From Candidatus Nitrosopelagicus sp. (GTDB lineage: Archaea; Thermoproteota; Nitrososphaeria; Nitrososphaerales; Nitrosopumilaceae), in assembly GCA_028343215.1 (NCBI GenBank), contig JAOLYB010000009.1:1-45937 (forward strand): a stretch of 45,937 nt of DNA, in the 5' to 3' direction. This document shows, piece after piece, positions 1-2,951 of this stretch. The translations under genes and the position numbers were made by a program. The notes beneath the pieces were generated by a model. That model searched no databases and was not told the DNA's origin. It saw only the letters and a program-made list of their open reading frames with translations. Each line of letters begins with the position of its first letter. Position 1 is the stretch's first letter.

Positions 1-651
1 CAAGATGCAAAACCTGCTGAGGCAGCTCCTAAACCAGCTGAGACAAAACCGGCAGAAACTGCAAAACCAAAACCAGCAGAAACTAAACCGGAAACAAAAC
101 CAGCAGAAACTGCAAAACCAAAACCAGCAGAAACTGCACCAAAACCAGCTGAGAAAGCACCACCAGCTTCAGTTCCACTTCACGAAAGATTCCGTGAAAT
201 TCCAACAGGAAATTGGAACGTACAAAAAGTTGCAATCACTGGTTTCACTGCACCAAGTAACCGATACTTTGGTAGCAGAGCTCTTGCAGCACAAGTTGAA
301 GTTACACCATCCAACTGGAATGATCACAAAACAAAAATCACTGGTTACACAGCACCAGGAAACAAGTACTTTGCAACAAAACAAAGACTTGCATATCATC
401 CGGAAGCCAAAAAATTTGGTACTTGGATAAAAGATACTCCAGCACCACAAACTCAAAAACCAGCAGAAGCTAAAAAAGCAGAAGCAGGTGGTCCACATGG
501 ACATGATGAAAAACCAAAAGTAGAAGCCAAACCAAAAAAAGCAGATAATGCTGATACAGCTAAAGATGCATATGCTGCAGAAATGAAGAAAAAAGGCGCA
601 ACTTTACCAAAAGGATTCATCAAAGATGCAAAAGCAAACACAGGACACTAA
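1..651 (+). CDS. Lys/Ala/Pro-rich repeat protein with KANTGH tail, 5' end cut by window edge
   Basis: The frame is open from base 1 to the TAA at 649-651, so the start lies outside the window. The visible 216 residues are a KPAET-rich linker, a two-repeat domain (each repeat N-W-N-x2-K-x2-ITG-x-TAP-x-N-x-YF), a short GGPHGHDE segment, and a tail containing KGATLPKGF and ending KANTGH. The central domain is nearly the same as in the gene at 2061-2951, and 260 bp of it are identical at DNA level. The His segment and tail match the small gene at 1088-1249. I do not recognise a known family. The charged, Pro/Ala-rich make-up suggests a cytoplasmic structural or nucleic-acid-associated protein, which is inference only. 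Confidence 0.85.
   Translation, partial: QDAKPAEAAPKPAETKPAETAKPKPAETKPETKPAETAKPKPAETAPKPAEKAPPASVPLHERFREIPTGNWNVQKVAITGFTAPSNRYFGSRALAAQVEVTPSNWNDHKTKITGYTAPGNKYFATKQRLAYHPEAKKFGTWIKDTPAPQTQKPAEAKKAEAGGPHGHDEKPKVEAKPKKADNADTAKDAYAAEMKKKGATLPKGFIKDAKANTGH
172..431 (+). repeat. 260-bp perfect direct repeat, copy 1
   Basis: Bases 172-431 are identical to 2397-2656, including third codon positions. The block encodes the ITG/TAP repeat domain. Flanking coding sequence differs clearly, which points to recent duplication or gene conversion limited to this domain. Confidence 0.95.
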
Positions 652-700
652 TCATTAGTGTAAATTCTAGAACATTCTTTTTTTCTTTTATTTTCTTTTA
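645..700 (+). terminator. Hairpin overlapping the stop codon, then T-tract
   Basis: A perfect 7-bp inverted repeat (ACACTAA, loop TCA, TTAGTGT; 645-661) includes the stop codon of the preceding gene. It is followed by TTCTAGAA and a run of T from 678. The same element follows two paralogues, at 952-968 and 1243-1259. Position and T-tract suggest a terminator or 3' end stability element. Confidence 0.6.
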
Positions 701-802
701 AAATTCTAATATTTTTGTATATTTTATCTTCTAGAATTTTGTAATTAAATGCTAAAACTAAATCCTGAAATTAAGCTGTTCATTAAATATCTGTAATTCT
801 AA

Positions 803-958
803 TTGGAAGAATTGACCAAATTAAAAAAATCTACCGCAGCAGAAGCAAAGAAAAAACAAAAAGATGCTAAAGCCGAATATATTGAAAAAATGAAGGCTAA
901 AGGCGCAACTTTACCAAAAGGTTTCATTTCTGATGCAAAAGCAAACACAGGACACTAA
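803..958 (+). CDS. Small KANTGH-tail paralogue (51 aa, TTG start)
   Basis: A short open frame ends in the array tail (KGATLPKGFIS, then DAKANTGH), followed by TAA at 956-958. The first possible start is TTG at 803, directly after an in-frame stop at 800-802. A second TTG lies at 812. The body before the tail is highly charged (KKSTAAEAKKKQK) and probably helical. It lacks the ITG/TAP repeat domain and the GPHGHDE segment of its neighbours. Coding status rests on the tail being kept in frame with paralogues, including the hairpin over the stop. It could also be a decaying remnant of a longer copy, because no ATG is present. Confidence 0.55.
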   Translation: MEELTKLKKSTAAEAKKKQKDAKAEYIEKMKAKGATLPKGFISDAKANTGH

Positions 959-1000
959 TCATTAGTGTAAATTCTAGAACTTTCTTTTTTTATTTCTATT
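952..1000 (+). terminator. Hairpin overlapping the stop codon, second copy
   Basis: The stem ACACTAA/TTAGTGT with TCA loop (952-968) covers the stop codon of the 51-aa gene and is followed by T-rich sequence from about 981. It matches the elements at 645 and 1243. Confidence 0.6.
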
Positions 1001-1049
1001 TTTCTTAATTCTTTTCTAAATCTGTGTTATTTATTGAAAAAATTCCATA

Positions 1050-1073
1050 TCATTACATAAATAAACAACTAAT
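1050..1073 (+). promoter_or_regulatory. Leader element shared with the 2061 gene
   Basis: TCATTACA (1050-1057) and CAACTAAT (1066-1073) lie just before the ATG at 1088. The same two blocks precede the gene at 2061 (2018-2025 and 2039-2046). CAACTAAT starts exactly 22 nt before the ATG in both. It may be a common transcription start region or 5' leader signal. Confidence 0.4.
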
Positions 1074-1087
1074 GCTATGACCAATCT

Positions 1088-1249
1088 ATGGCTGGTCCAC
1101 ACGCACATGATGAAGAGCCAAAAAAAGAAGTAAAAAAAGCAGATGATGCTGAAGCAGCTAAAGAAGAATATGCTGCAGAAATGAAGAAAAAAGGCGCAAC
1201 TTTACCAAAAGGATTCATCAAAGATGCAAAAGCAAACACAGGACACTAA
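1088..1249 (+). CDS. Small GPHAHDE/KANTGH paralogue (53 aa)
   Basis: ATG at 1088 to TAA at 1247-1249. The protein starts MAGPHAHDEEPKK, continues through a Lys/Glu/Ala helix-like stretch (AKEEYAAEMKKK) and ends KGATLPKGFIK, DAKANTGH. It is a stand-alone version of the C-terminal third of the gene ending at 651, so the array has both long forms and a tail-only form. No ITG/TAP repeat, membrane segment or Cys is present. The shared leader blocks at 1050-1073 and the stop-codon hairpin make a real gene likely. Function unknown. Confidence 0.7.
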   Translation: MAGPHAHDEEPKKEVKKADDAEAAKEEYAAEMKKKGATLPKGFIKDAKANTGH

Positions 1250-1300
1250 TCATTAGTGTAAATTCTAAATTCTCTTTTTATTTTATTTTTTTAGTTTTTT
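1243..1300 (+). terminator. Hairpin overlapping the stop codon, third copy
   Basis: The same ACACTAA-TCA-TTAGTGT stem-loop (1243-1259) spans the stop codon of the 53-aa gene and is followed by repeated T-runs to about 1300. Confidence 0.6.
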
Positions 1301-1384
1301 TTGCAATTTTCATACATTTTTTCTCATTTTTCTGATCTCCCAGATCAGTATGAATTAAATATGAATAGGATGAGGTTTTTCTTA

Positions 1385-1939
1385 ATGACAATCGGACTTT
1401 ATTTTGGTACTCAAACTGGAAAAACTGAAACAGTTTGTGGTATAATTAAAGAACAACTAGGCGATGCAGTAGGAACTGCTAAAGATGTTACCGAAGCTGA
1501 TTTGGCAGACTTTGCCGGTCTTGACGGTCTCATATGTGGCATTCCTACATGGAATACTGGAGCTGAAGAATTAAGATCTGGAACTGCTTGGGATGACCTA
1601 TTAGAAAAAATTGGTGCATTAGATCTCAAAGGAAAGCCAGTCGCAATATTTGGCTTAGGTGACTCTGTTGGTTATGGACAAGACTATGTCGATGCAATGG
1701 AAGAACTACACAGATATTTCGAAAAAGCAGGTGCAAAAATGGTCGGATACGTAAGTCTTGACGGCTATGAGAACTTTACTAGTTCAAGATGTTTGATCCC
1801 ACATCTCAATGAGATTACACAACCAGACGATGGTGAAAAGTTTTGTGGACTTCCTGTCGATGAAGATAGTGAAAATGAACTAACAGCAGAACGAGTAGAG
1901 AACTGGTGCACTCAGCTTAAATCTGAAATGGGAATATAG
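1385..1939 (+). CDS. Flavodoxin
   Basis: Small FMN electron carrier, 184 aa, which fits long-chain flavodoxins. The N-terminal FMN phosphate loop is GTQTGKT (residues 8-14). The isoalloxazine-flanking loops are PTWNTG (54-59) and GLGDSVGYGQDY (90-101), and the long-chain insertion follows (YVSLDGYENF). The frame is open upstream to 1301, but the ATG at 1385 places the phosphate loop at the usual distance from the N-terminus. The gene sits inside the KANTGH-tail array without sharing its sequence features. The likely role is a replacement for ferredoxin in cytoplasmic electron transfer, for instance under iron limitation, as known for the family. Confidence 0.93.
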   Translation: MTIGLYFGTQTGKTETVCGIIKEQLGDAVGTAKDVTEADLADFAGLDGLICGIPTWNTGAEELRSGTAWDDLLEKIGALDLKGKPVAIFGLGDSVGYGQDYVDAMEELHRYFEKAGAKMVGYVSLDGYENFTSSRCLIPHLNEITQPDDGEKFCGLPVDEDSENELTAERVENWCTQLKSEMGI

Positions 1940-2017
1940 AACATCTACTATCCTCATTACAACTCCTTTTTTCAAATTTTTACATATTTTCGTTTATTTT
2001 TTTGCAAAAATTTTATG

Positions 2018-2046
2018 TCATTACAAAATGCACATAAGCAACTAAT
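2018..2046 (+). promoter_or_regulatory. Leader element shared with the 1088 gene
   Basis: TCATTACA (2018-2025) and CAACTAAT (2039-2046) repeat the pair found at 1050-1073. The distance from CAACTAAT to the ATG is the same in both, while the spacing between the two blocks differs by 5 nt. A T-rich stretch (about 1986-2003) upstream may hold the TATA element. Confidence 0.4.
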
Positions 2047-2060
2047 TCCCTATTCCACCA

Positions 2061-2951
2061 ATGGCGACATCGAAAAAGCGTACAACAACAAAACGTAAAA
2101 CAACAACAAAACGTAAAACAACAACAAAACGTAAAACAACATCTTCAAGAACAACAAAAGCTGATTTAGAAGCAAAGATTGCTCAATTAGAAAAGCGATT
2201 ATCCGGTCTTGCAGCAGGTGCTGAATCAAAACCAGCTCCAAAACCAGCTCCAAAACCAGCAGAAACTAAACCAGCAGAAACTGCAAAACCAAAACCAGCA
2301 GAAGTTAAAAAACCAGAAGGCGGTGGCGGTCCACACGGACATGATGAAAAGCCCTCAGACAAGGCACCACCAAAGCCTGCAGAGAAAGCACCTCCAGTTC
2401 CACTTCACGAAAGATTCCGTGAAATTCCAACAGGAAATTGGAACGTACAAAAAGTTGCAATCACTGGTTTCACTGCACCAAGTAACCGATACTTTGGTAG
2501 CAGAGCTCTTGCAGCACAAGTTGAAGTTACACCATCCAACTGGAATGATCACAAAACAAAAATCACTGGTTACACAGCACCAGGAAACAAGTACTTTGCA
2601 ACAAAACAAAGACTTGCATATCATCCGGAAGCCAAAAAATTTGGTACTTGGATAAATGATGCTCCAGCAAGTGGACAAGCAAAATCTGCTCCACCACCTC
2701 CACCACCTCCACAACCTGAAATTCAGGCTAGTGCTGGAAGTGCATCTGATGGAAAATCAAAGCAGCAAGAACTTGAAGACTATGAGAAAGAATACTTGGT
2801 ACGTCTAGAACAGAAAAAAGTTGATGATGCAAAAGCAGCAGCAGAAGCAGCAGCCGCAGAAGCAGCAGCAGCAGCAGCCGCACAATCTAACCGAGGCTCA
2901 ATGCCGAAAGGTTGGGGACCTGCAGGTGTAAAAGCAAACACTGGACATTAA
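2061..2951 (+). CDS. Modular Lys/Pro/Ala-rich protein with H1-like N-terminus, ITG/TAP repeats and KANTGH tail
   Basis: 296 aa, intact. Order seen: a very basic Thr/Lys/Arg tail with three TTTKRK units (residues 8-25), a short coiled coil (33-50), a KPAP/KPAET linker, GGPHGHDE (89-95), two 34-residue repeats starting at N126 and N160 (N-W-N-x2-K-x2-ITG-x-TAP-x-N-x-YF), a poly-Pro run (211-217), a charged helix with long poly-Ala stretches (about 240-275), then SMPKGW and the terminal KANTGH. There is no signal peptide or membrane span. The basic tail resembles histone H1 or bacterial HU-extension tails, so DNA binding is possible (inference). Residues 113-199 are encoded by DNA identical to the partial gene at window start. 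The stop-codon hairpin of the other copies is missing here. Confidence 0.88.
   Translation: MATSKKRTTTKRKTTTKRKTTTKRKTTSSRTTKADLEAKIAQLEKRLSGLAAGAESKPAPKPAPKPAETKPAETAKPKPAEVKKPEGGGGPHGHDEKPSDKAPPKPAEKAPPVPLHERFREIPTGNWNVQKVAITGFTAPSNRYFGSRALAAQVEVTPSNWNDHKTKITGYTAPGNKYFATKQRLAYHPEAKKFGTWINDAPASGQAKSAPPPPPPPQPEIQASAGSASDGKSKQQELEDYEKEYLVRLEQKKVDDAKAAAEAAAAEAAAAAAAQSNRGSMPKGWGPAGVKANTGH
2082..2135 (+). repeat. 18-bp in-frame tandem repeat, 3 copies (TTTKRK)
   Basis: The unit ACAACAACAAAACGTAAA occurs three times without change and encodes the basic hexapeptide TTTKRK. It lies in the N-terminal tail of the 2061 gene. Confidence 0.9.
2397..2656 (+). repeat. 260-bp perfect direct repeat, copy 2
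   Basis: This is the identical partner of 172-431. Identity ends abruptly at GGATAAA, after which the two genes diverge in sequence and length. Confidence 0.95.

Follow-up and report, generated by a model that had tools for sequence, protein, structure and literature searches.

CsoS2 and EPYC1 are disordered scaffolds of carboxysomes or pyrenoids; they carry multivalent short motifs and a conserved C-terminal peptide, and CsoS2 contains VTG/ITG-like repeats. Polar organising scaffolds of bacteria of the PopZ type consist of a short helix, a Pro-rich linker, and oligomerising helices, and in histone H1-like and AlgP-like proteins a Lys/Thr-rich repeated tail lies next to a coiled coil. Here, we describe a gene set with possible parallels to these systems at the start of contig JAOLYB010000009.1 of a “Ca. 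Nitrosopelagicus” sp. (family Nitrosopumilaceae); ammonia oxidation in the ocean is dominated by these archaea. The window, i.e., the whole 45,937-nucleotide (nt) stretch analysed, is contig C43 of a 1.06-Mb genome with a completeness of 74.7%. A short tail peptide, LPKGF in its commonest form, is common to unrelated proteins in this family, which suggests an undescribed protein-docking system; LPKGF is not known as a motif of CsoS2 or EPYC1.

Positions 1-2951 of the window contain four paralogous genes on the + strand, with open reading frames (ORFs) at 1-651, 803-958, 1088-1249, and 2061-2951. The first and the fourth were named TAP1 and TAP2 in this analysis. As an earlier note on this DNA had described, all four genes end with KANTGH, TAP1 and TAP2 each contain two WN..K..ITG.TAP.N.YF repeats with a period of 34 residues, and the tail reads GATLPKGF in three genes and GSMPKGW in TAP2. 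The segment GPHGHDE or GPHAHDE is present in three of the four genes and is absent from the 51-codon ORF. The term “array” used in the note fits only in part: the four paralogues are not contiguous, and a gene of an FldA-type flavodoxin (1385-1939, +; NCBIfam NF006738, E-value 3.8e-62), which is context and not a part of the system, lies between genes 3 and 4.

The conserved element in these proteins and their relatives is (R/K/H)G(T/S/A)(L/M)PKG(F/W), represented by GATLPKGF in TAP1 (595-618), as identified from the sequence and its relatives, and by the W version RGSMPKGW in TAP2 (2892-2915). A search with TAP2 found relatives, some as weak matches only, in 166 of 200 genomes from the window's family, with all 22 genera represented; a profile of the two-repeat module matched in 118 of the 250 class genomes searched, from 19 of 62 genera, and all 118 belong to the window's family. 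The module-bearing set comprised 97 frames in 77 loci, strains of one species included, and the 92 frames with a real stop were taken as complete relatives. The pattern [LM]P[KA]G[FW] forms the exact C-terminus in 64 of these 92, lies at most 12 residues from the end in 21, and is absent there in seven, five of them being near-variants. The peptide is also repeated inside linkers, with seven strict copies in one Cenarchaeum-type TAP protein (L054). Genera g6 and g9 have GTLPAGM or GTLPAGF as their version of the motif, and the frames examined there contain a single module repeat, STGYTGNKYFATR.

A pattern search for the tail, along the lines proposed in the note, found KANTGH in 14 of the 200 family genomes, 13 of them from the window's genus, and the tail pattern read backwards had no match in the own genome or in the 200 family genomes. 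Related copies without KANTGH were observed as well, and both L100 copies end at LPKGF. The proposed constraint on the last residues agrees with the constraint seen at the C-terminus and fits recognition by a partner, but the fixed element is GxLPKGF/W and not KANTGH, which is nearly limited to one genus. On the sequence evidence, KANTGH is a recent or late extension behind a deeply conserved motif. A fifth KANTGH gene is located elsewhere in the genome, at the start of contig C12; judging by its neighbours and relatives, it appears to be the end of a DUF3892-like coiled-coil protein that starts at the end of contig C23. In addition, a 155-aa frame read from base 3 of the - strand in L055 (genome G155, genus g12; 5.4-kb contig) joins a Nitrosopumilus-type TAP module to a Nitrosopelagicus-type KANTGH tail, and this chimera may reflect either exchange between genera or contamination.

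In a same-sized draw of class genomes (146 from the window's family and 104 others), a related motif pattern was found in 83 of the 146 family genomes versus 7 of the 104 from other families, and the reversed control gave 6 and 8, respectively (hand-counted). The strict motif DNA pattern had 68 matches in nine genomes versus one with the reversed control. By our placing, these matches fell in TAP genes (40), DUF3892-like proteins (16), a membrane protein (5), a coiled-coil protein (4), or nowhere (3; inspection of two revealed no fitting frame). The motif peptide thus recurs in three families unrelated to the TAP proteins. Inside the motif, L is paired with F and M with W (counts 141, 4, 5, and 22; Fisher p 3e-19, for related sequences from which redundancy was removed by context only).

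The DUF3892-like family was grouped by similarity of the heads, which scored 21.6 bits with DUF3892 (PF13031; cut-off 22.3) and 23.4 in a small neighbour, and the window genes had no DUF3892 match in the Pfam scan. Strict motif copies number 21 in L224 and 15 in L089, while the copies in L040 read NKSMPKGW and NKTLPKGF. The L224 protein (L224:1031-5020, genome G023) has 1329 aa, and its copies are mostly HGTLPKGM, with a CxxC end. The L222 protein, the only member scanned for DUF5679, contains four RGSLPKE and no strict copy and matches DUF5679 at its end; similar CxxC ends were recognised by eye in L221, L224, L225, L226, and L248. A helix of the L..YE..YL type, as in TAP2, is also found in four DUF3892-like frames (L089, L224, L040, and L220). 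Members of the coiled-coil family, which are long proteins, have one motif copy each.

In the nine loci found by the motif, the membrane protein comprises an outer part, a single transmembrane segment with Lys/Arg behind it, and a presumably cytoplasmic tail that ends in the motif; an N-terminal hydrophobic segment is seen where the start is visible (L234 and L235), and the gene adjoins a CofD-like gene (named by eye). A relative was found in 29 of 30 genomes searched, two from other families included; copies listed without a locus were left unread. Among 30 loci found by homology, the motif is terminal in nine (MPKDW in L269 and L270), one ends otherwise, and L261 and L280 were read in the wrong frame, giving no verdict, while outside the family (L278 and L279) the protein ends at the membrane segment. 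In L251-L255, L257, L258, L263, and L264, a Cys-rich, possibly metal-binding tail replaces the LPKGF/W motif at the same place. Members L235 and L237 had no match in Pfam or NCBIfam, and one member compared with the PDB gave no convincing sequence match (best E 0.32). The idea that, within a genome, TAP2 and the membrane protein co-vary in their terminal motif version was considered and rejected: it holds for L051/L231 (GSMPKGWKPS), L058/L236, and L135/L234 (LPKGF) and fails for L050/L270 and L092/L244.

Since the peptide is confined, as tested, to one archaeal family, is carried by unrelated proteins, is often multivalent, and occurs on some membrane tails, a common reader and a scaffold role appear to be the best explanation. 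We favour, with a probability of about 0.42, the reading that these are mostly disordered cytosolic scaffold proteins with short linear docking motifs, tied to the membrane and specific to the family. The TAP proteins would self-associate through their coiled coils, and the motif at the C-terminus, often also in linkers, would allow one molecule to hold several partner domains. A common reader of the motif would tie the TAP, DUF3892-like, coiled-coil, and membrane-anchored proteins into one membrane-linked assembly, which TAP1 with one coil and TAP2 with two could enter interchangeably; the small KANTGH proteins, with one motif each, might serve as monovalent caps or competitors. The L-F and M-W pairing is as would be expected for one binding pocket and was counted in favour of the scaffold. 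A bolder form of this proposal is more tentative: Nitrosopumilaceae may possess a private docking code, GxLPKGF/W, read by one hub, which wires the membrane protein, the DUF3892-like proteins with up to 21 copies, the coiled-coil protein, and the scaffold pair into a membrane-linked, possibly condensate-like assembly, and the module, which is alike within a species and divergent between species, may be a species-specific self-recognition surface.

The C-terminal position of the motif also admits another explanation, namely that LPKGF/W is a signal for a protease or a quality-control factor (a C-degron or tag) and not a scaffold contact. Its exact placement at the end of most complete relatives and its presence on unrelated proteins would agree with such a signal; however, up to 21 internal copies occur in one protein, and the motif is conserved even where the KANTGH extension buries the terminus. 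We consider a degron improbable. The tails of the membrane protein bear on a metal-handling network, in which GPHGHDE (490-510 in TAP1) and the Cys-rich tails would bind copper or zinc and LPKGF would be a companion contact. This is consistent with the alignment of GPHGHDE with an internal GTLPKGF, with the Cys-rich tails in nine motif-less loci (from g2, g4, g12, and g14-g17), with the DUF5679 match in L222, and with the peroxiredoxin and flavodoxin neighbours, but the His segment is present in 2 of 28 aligned TAP2 sequences and the window TAP2 has no Cys, and we give metal handling little credence.

The two large TAP genes evolve in a concerted manner. The comparison included 28 loci with both genes; duplicates of contigs already included and the loci with a partial first gene (L144 and L153) were left out. 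The module DNA of TAP1 and TAP2 is exactly identical within 14 of the 28 loci, and the within-locus paralogue identity is above both best orthologues of the set in 23; the five loci where it is not (L041, L042, L043, L045, and L102) all belong to the window's genus. Perfectly matching tracts extend up to 579 nt, but the two genes differ in their first codons; in L100 and L112, the longest exact run is only the overlap of the two compared stretches. In the window, genes 1 and 4 share a 281-nt direct repeat (164-444 and 2389-2669, both +) at 99% identity, and the contig begins just upstream of it. An identity of 1.000 was also found in single-contig genomes (loci L048, L049, L050, L051, L052, and L057), and assembly artefacts alone therefore do not account for it. 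We infer that the shared module is kept alike by gene conversion, for which the 281-nt repeat is the putative tract; the active duplication suspected in the note is seen in the repeated modules and 3' ends and reaches this apparent conversion. Near-identity of the central modules would be expected if both proteins enter one assembly interchangeably. In L194:5784-6899 (genome G058), two TAP units are apparently fused in-frame in a 371-aa frame, as expected from unequal recombination of paired genes.

A second repeat, of 166 nt, covers the 3' ends of genes 1-3 at 77-90% identity (534-699, 841-1006, and 1132-1297, +) and includes about 48 nt beyond the stop, which makes the small genes look like duplicated TAP1 3' ends. 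For gene 2, the 51 codons given in the note are probably 48, with a conserved TTG start at 812 (812-958, +; 48 aa, one tail motif), because relatives have no ATG at the upstream position; the 53 codons of gene 3 (1088-1249, +; GPHAHDE plus the tail) hold. The pooled ratio of nonsynonymous to synonymous polymorphism (pN/pS) is 0.31 for gene 2 and 0.23 for gene 3 (six genomes each) versus 0.28 for TAP2 (eight genomes), and the lengths of both small genes vary between genomes by whole codons only. By these measures, the small ORFs are real genes under purifying selection. Such selection bears on the view that these are disordered, fast-drifting low-complexity proteins with a protective or filler role, in which the motif spread by repeat recombination. 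The freely variable Pro/Ala/Lys/Glu-rich linkers and the recombining repeats would suit that view; the purifying selection, the invariant residues, and the placing of 65 of the 68 motif matches in four families, versus one control match, speak against it, and a filler role seems very improbable.

A TATA-like sequence, TAAATAAAC (1058-1066, +), lies 22-30 nt upstream of gene 3. In the 60 nt upstream of 73 TAP genes, TATA-like hexamers were counted 45 times at -30 to -27 from the ATG and 6 times at other positions, which suggests very short leaders.

TAP1 (1-651, +) is truncated, as the window begins at base 1 of the contig; complete KANTGH-bearing orthologues have 245-267 aa, and a full orthologue is present at L039:4057-4860. 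The preserved part comprises a Pro/Ala/Lys linker, the two-repeat ITG/TAP module (181-438, profile match), GPHGHDE, and the tail, GATLPKGFIKDAKANTGH. TAP2 (2061-2951, +) encodes 296 aa in the order of a basic KRTTT tail, a coiled coil, a linker, the two-repeat module (2406-2666, profile matches), a second coiled coil, GSMPKGW, and KANTGH, which with the stop occupies 2931-2951 (other copies at 631-651, 938-958, and 1229-1249). AlphaFold modelling of full-length TAP2 with 28 sequences predicted two confident helices, with low confidence elsewhere. The N-terminal helix comprises residues 33-53 (2157-2219, +; block means 84-88), and the second, containing LEDYEKEYLVRLEQ, residues 234-276 (2760-2888, +; block means 75-92; invariant L, YE, Y, and R).

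The possibly new ITG/TAP repeat domain of the note is real as sequence, but its status as a folded domain was not borne out by a low-confidence model (54 sequences; mean predicted local distance difference test, pLDDT, of 61 and predicted template modelling score, pTM, of 0.29), and some relatives have one repeat only. None of the four window proteins exceeded a curated cut-off in Pfam or NCBIfam (best E 0.017-0.96), and PHROGs yielded only E 0.37, in agreement with the note, whose reader knew no described family with this tail. In the Pfam searches with the module and full-length sequences and the NCBIfam search with the trimmed module, the matches of the first member were under the cut-off and the best E of other members was 8.3e-05 or weaker (bits not printed); full-length sequences had scattered weak matches to coiled-coil or low-complexity families. 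The sole recurrent library match was to the RNase H1 N-terminal domain (PF01693), to which 26 of 54 module sequences showed a weak resemblance (best E 0.0017), as did 8 of 28 sequences when the module was trimmed to its second repeat. In the window protein TAP2, the second repeat falls on profile positions 15-39 of 44, with 14.6 bits versus a cut-off of 21. Genome-wide, none of 14 genomes had a PF01693 match over the cut-off, and in G003 and G034 TAP genes ranked among the top-scoring positions (E 0.135 and 0.377). The trimmed module had equally weak unrelated NCBIfam matches (4 of 28, best E 0.0063). When the trimmed profile was compared with the PDB, nothing matched up to E 10; another PDB search had a best E of 0.39, and no solved-structure family was matched. 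The CFA/I adhesin repeats were rejected as a PDB relative of the module: over the whole chain the 17-residue match reached 0.00054, but each stretch scored about 6 bits, and the match was taken as spurious.

A distant relation of the module to the RNase H1 N-terminal domain may therefore be kept as an open lead, and the recurrence of this weak match slightly lowered our estimate for the scaffold and raised that for a nucleic-acid-organising (nucleoid- or RNA-associated) role. In such a role, the Lys/Arg/Thr tail and a divergent RNase-H1-N-like module would bind DNA, RNA, or hybrids, the coils would bridge them, and the C-terminal peptide would be secondary. Residues 1-35 of TAP2 have a net charge of +13, long N-terminal RKT or KTT repeats occur in some relatives (L023, L024, and L113), a Lys-rich tail ends the coiled-coil family in L233, L241, L242, and L247, and the weak PF01693 matches listed above point the same way. 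However, PF01693 remained under the cut-off in all 14 genomes, unrelated NCBIfam matches were similarly weak, the PDB provided none, and basic residues are few at the N-terminus of most aligned members from other genera than the window's; a motif-bearing membrane protein does not fit either. We consider a nucleic-acid role unlikely, though it is the strongest of the alternatives.

Several observations weigh against the linear-motif scaffold that we prefer. The L/F and M/W pair counts are not phylogenetically independent. In L221, L222, L225, and L226, which come from several Nitrosopumilus-type genomes, RG(S/T)LPK(E/Q/D) is all that the DUF3892-like protein shows of the motif; the G-F that would follow is missing, and so is the shared helix. 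In many genomes the membrane protein has no motif, with the Cys-rich tail in 9 of the 30 loci and neither version in all seven g6/g9 loci, and its end may differ from that of TAP2 (GTLPKGF in L050 vs. GSMPKDWKPS in L270; RGTLPKGF in L092 vs. RGTMPKGWD in L244). The longest exact run between TAP1 and TAP2 is below 120 nt in 8 of the 28 loci, and conversion between neighbouring direct repeats is possible without selection. With 28 or 54 related sequences as input, low AlphaFold confidence is no proof of disorder, and the weak RNase H1 resemblance points to nucleic acid, not to protein docking. Finally, the analysis found neither a reader domain nor data on partners or localisation.

In most loci of relatives, one flank consists of aldolase-like, radical-SAM, and UbiD-like genes and the other of peroxiredoxin and MIP channel genes (all named by eye); L054 retains only the peroxiredoxin/MIP side, in L201 neither side is clearly recognisable, and short contigs show parts. 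The flavodoxin gene adjoins TAP genes in many Nitrosopelagicus loci and on one Nitrosopumilus contig (L128:829-1446), with no match in L100, L107, and L109.

Open-access searches by titles and abstract starts (proteome, gene conversion, scaffold, short linear motif, and DUF3892) returned no paper on these genes, and guessed Nitrosopumilus locus tags gave nothing in that literature. Papers with LPKGF, among the matches listed, concerned coronavirus proteins or immune responses to them. A report on disordered proteins (PMC5069720) was rejected as an account of these proteins, since the highly expressed disordered proteins in the parts consulted are euryarchaeal, and the passages of PMC10936438 consulted do not mention the proteins described here. 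If the favoured reading is true, a scaffold system that is present in 166 of 200 family genomes and connected with a membrane protein through a shared peptide would be a new element in the cell organisation of these archaea, and the motif could serve directly as bait in a search for the hub. Two neighbouring genes that evolve in concert over many genera also offer a natural case for studies of archaeal gene conversion.

In the comparison with PF01693 (Cauli_VI), the first third of the profile is unmatched in the window protein, and there is no confident fold. DUF3892 (PF13031) and DUF5679 (PF18930) form the head and the C-terminal ribbon of the second motif family, in which the DUF3892 heads score near or under the cut-off, and both are absent from the window genes. 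The basic tail and coiled coil of TAP2 are similar to those of histone H1-like and AlgP-like proteins, but the motif and the modules are not common to both, and a long basic tail is not found in all members; outside the window's genus, the tail is short in the majority of those aligned. The CsoS2/EPYC1-type scaffolds had no library match here, and no search was aimed at carboxysome shell, Rubisco clients, or carboxysome genes; any likeness would lie in the motif repeats of TAP and related chains and in a possible disorder, to which the low pLDDT outside the two TAP2 helices may point. The PopZ-type scaffolds, likewise without a library match here, have a layout like the helix, linker, and helix of TAP2.

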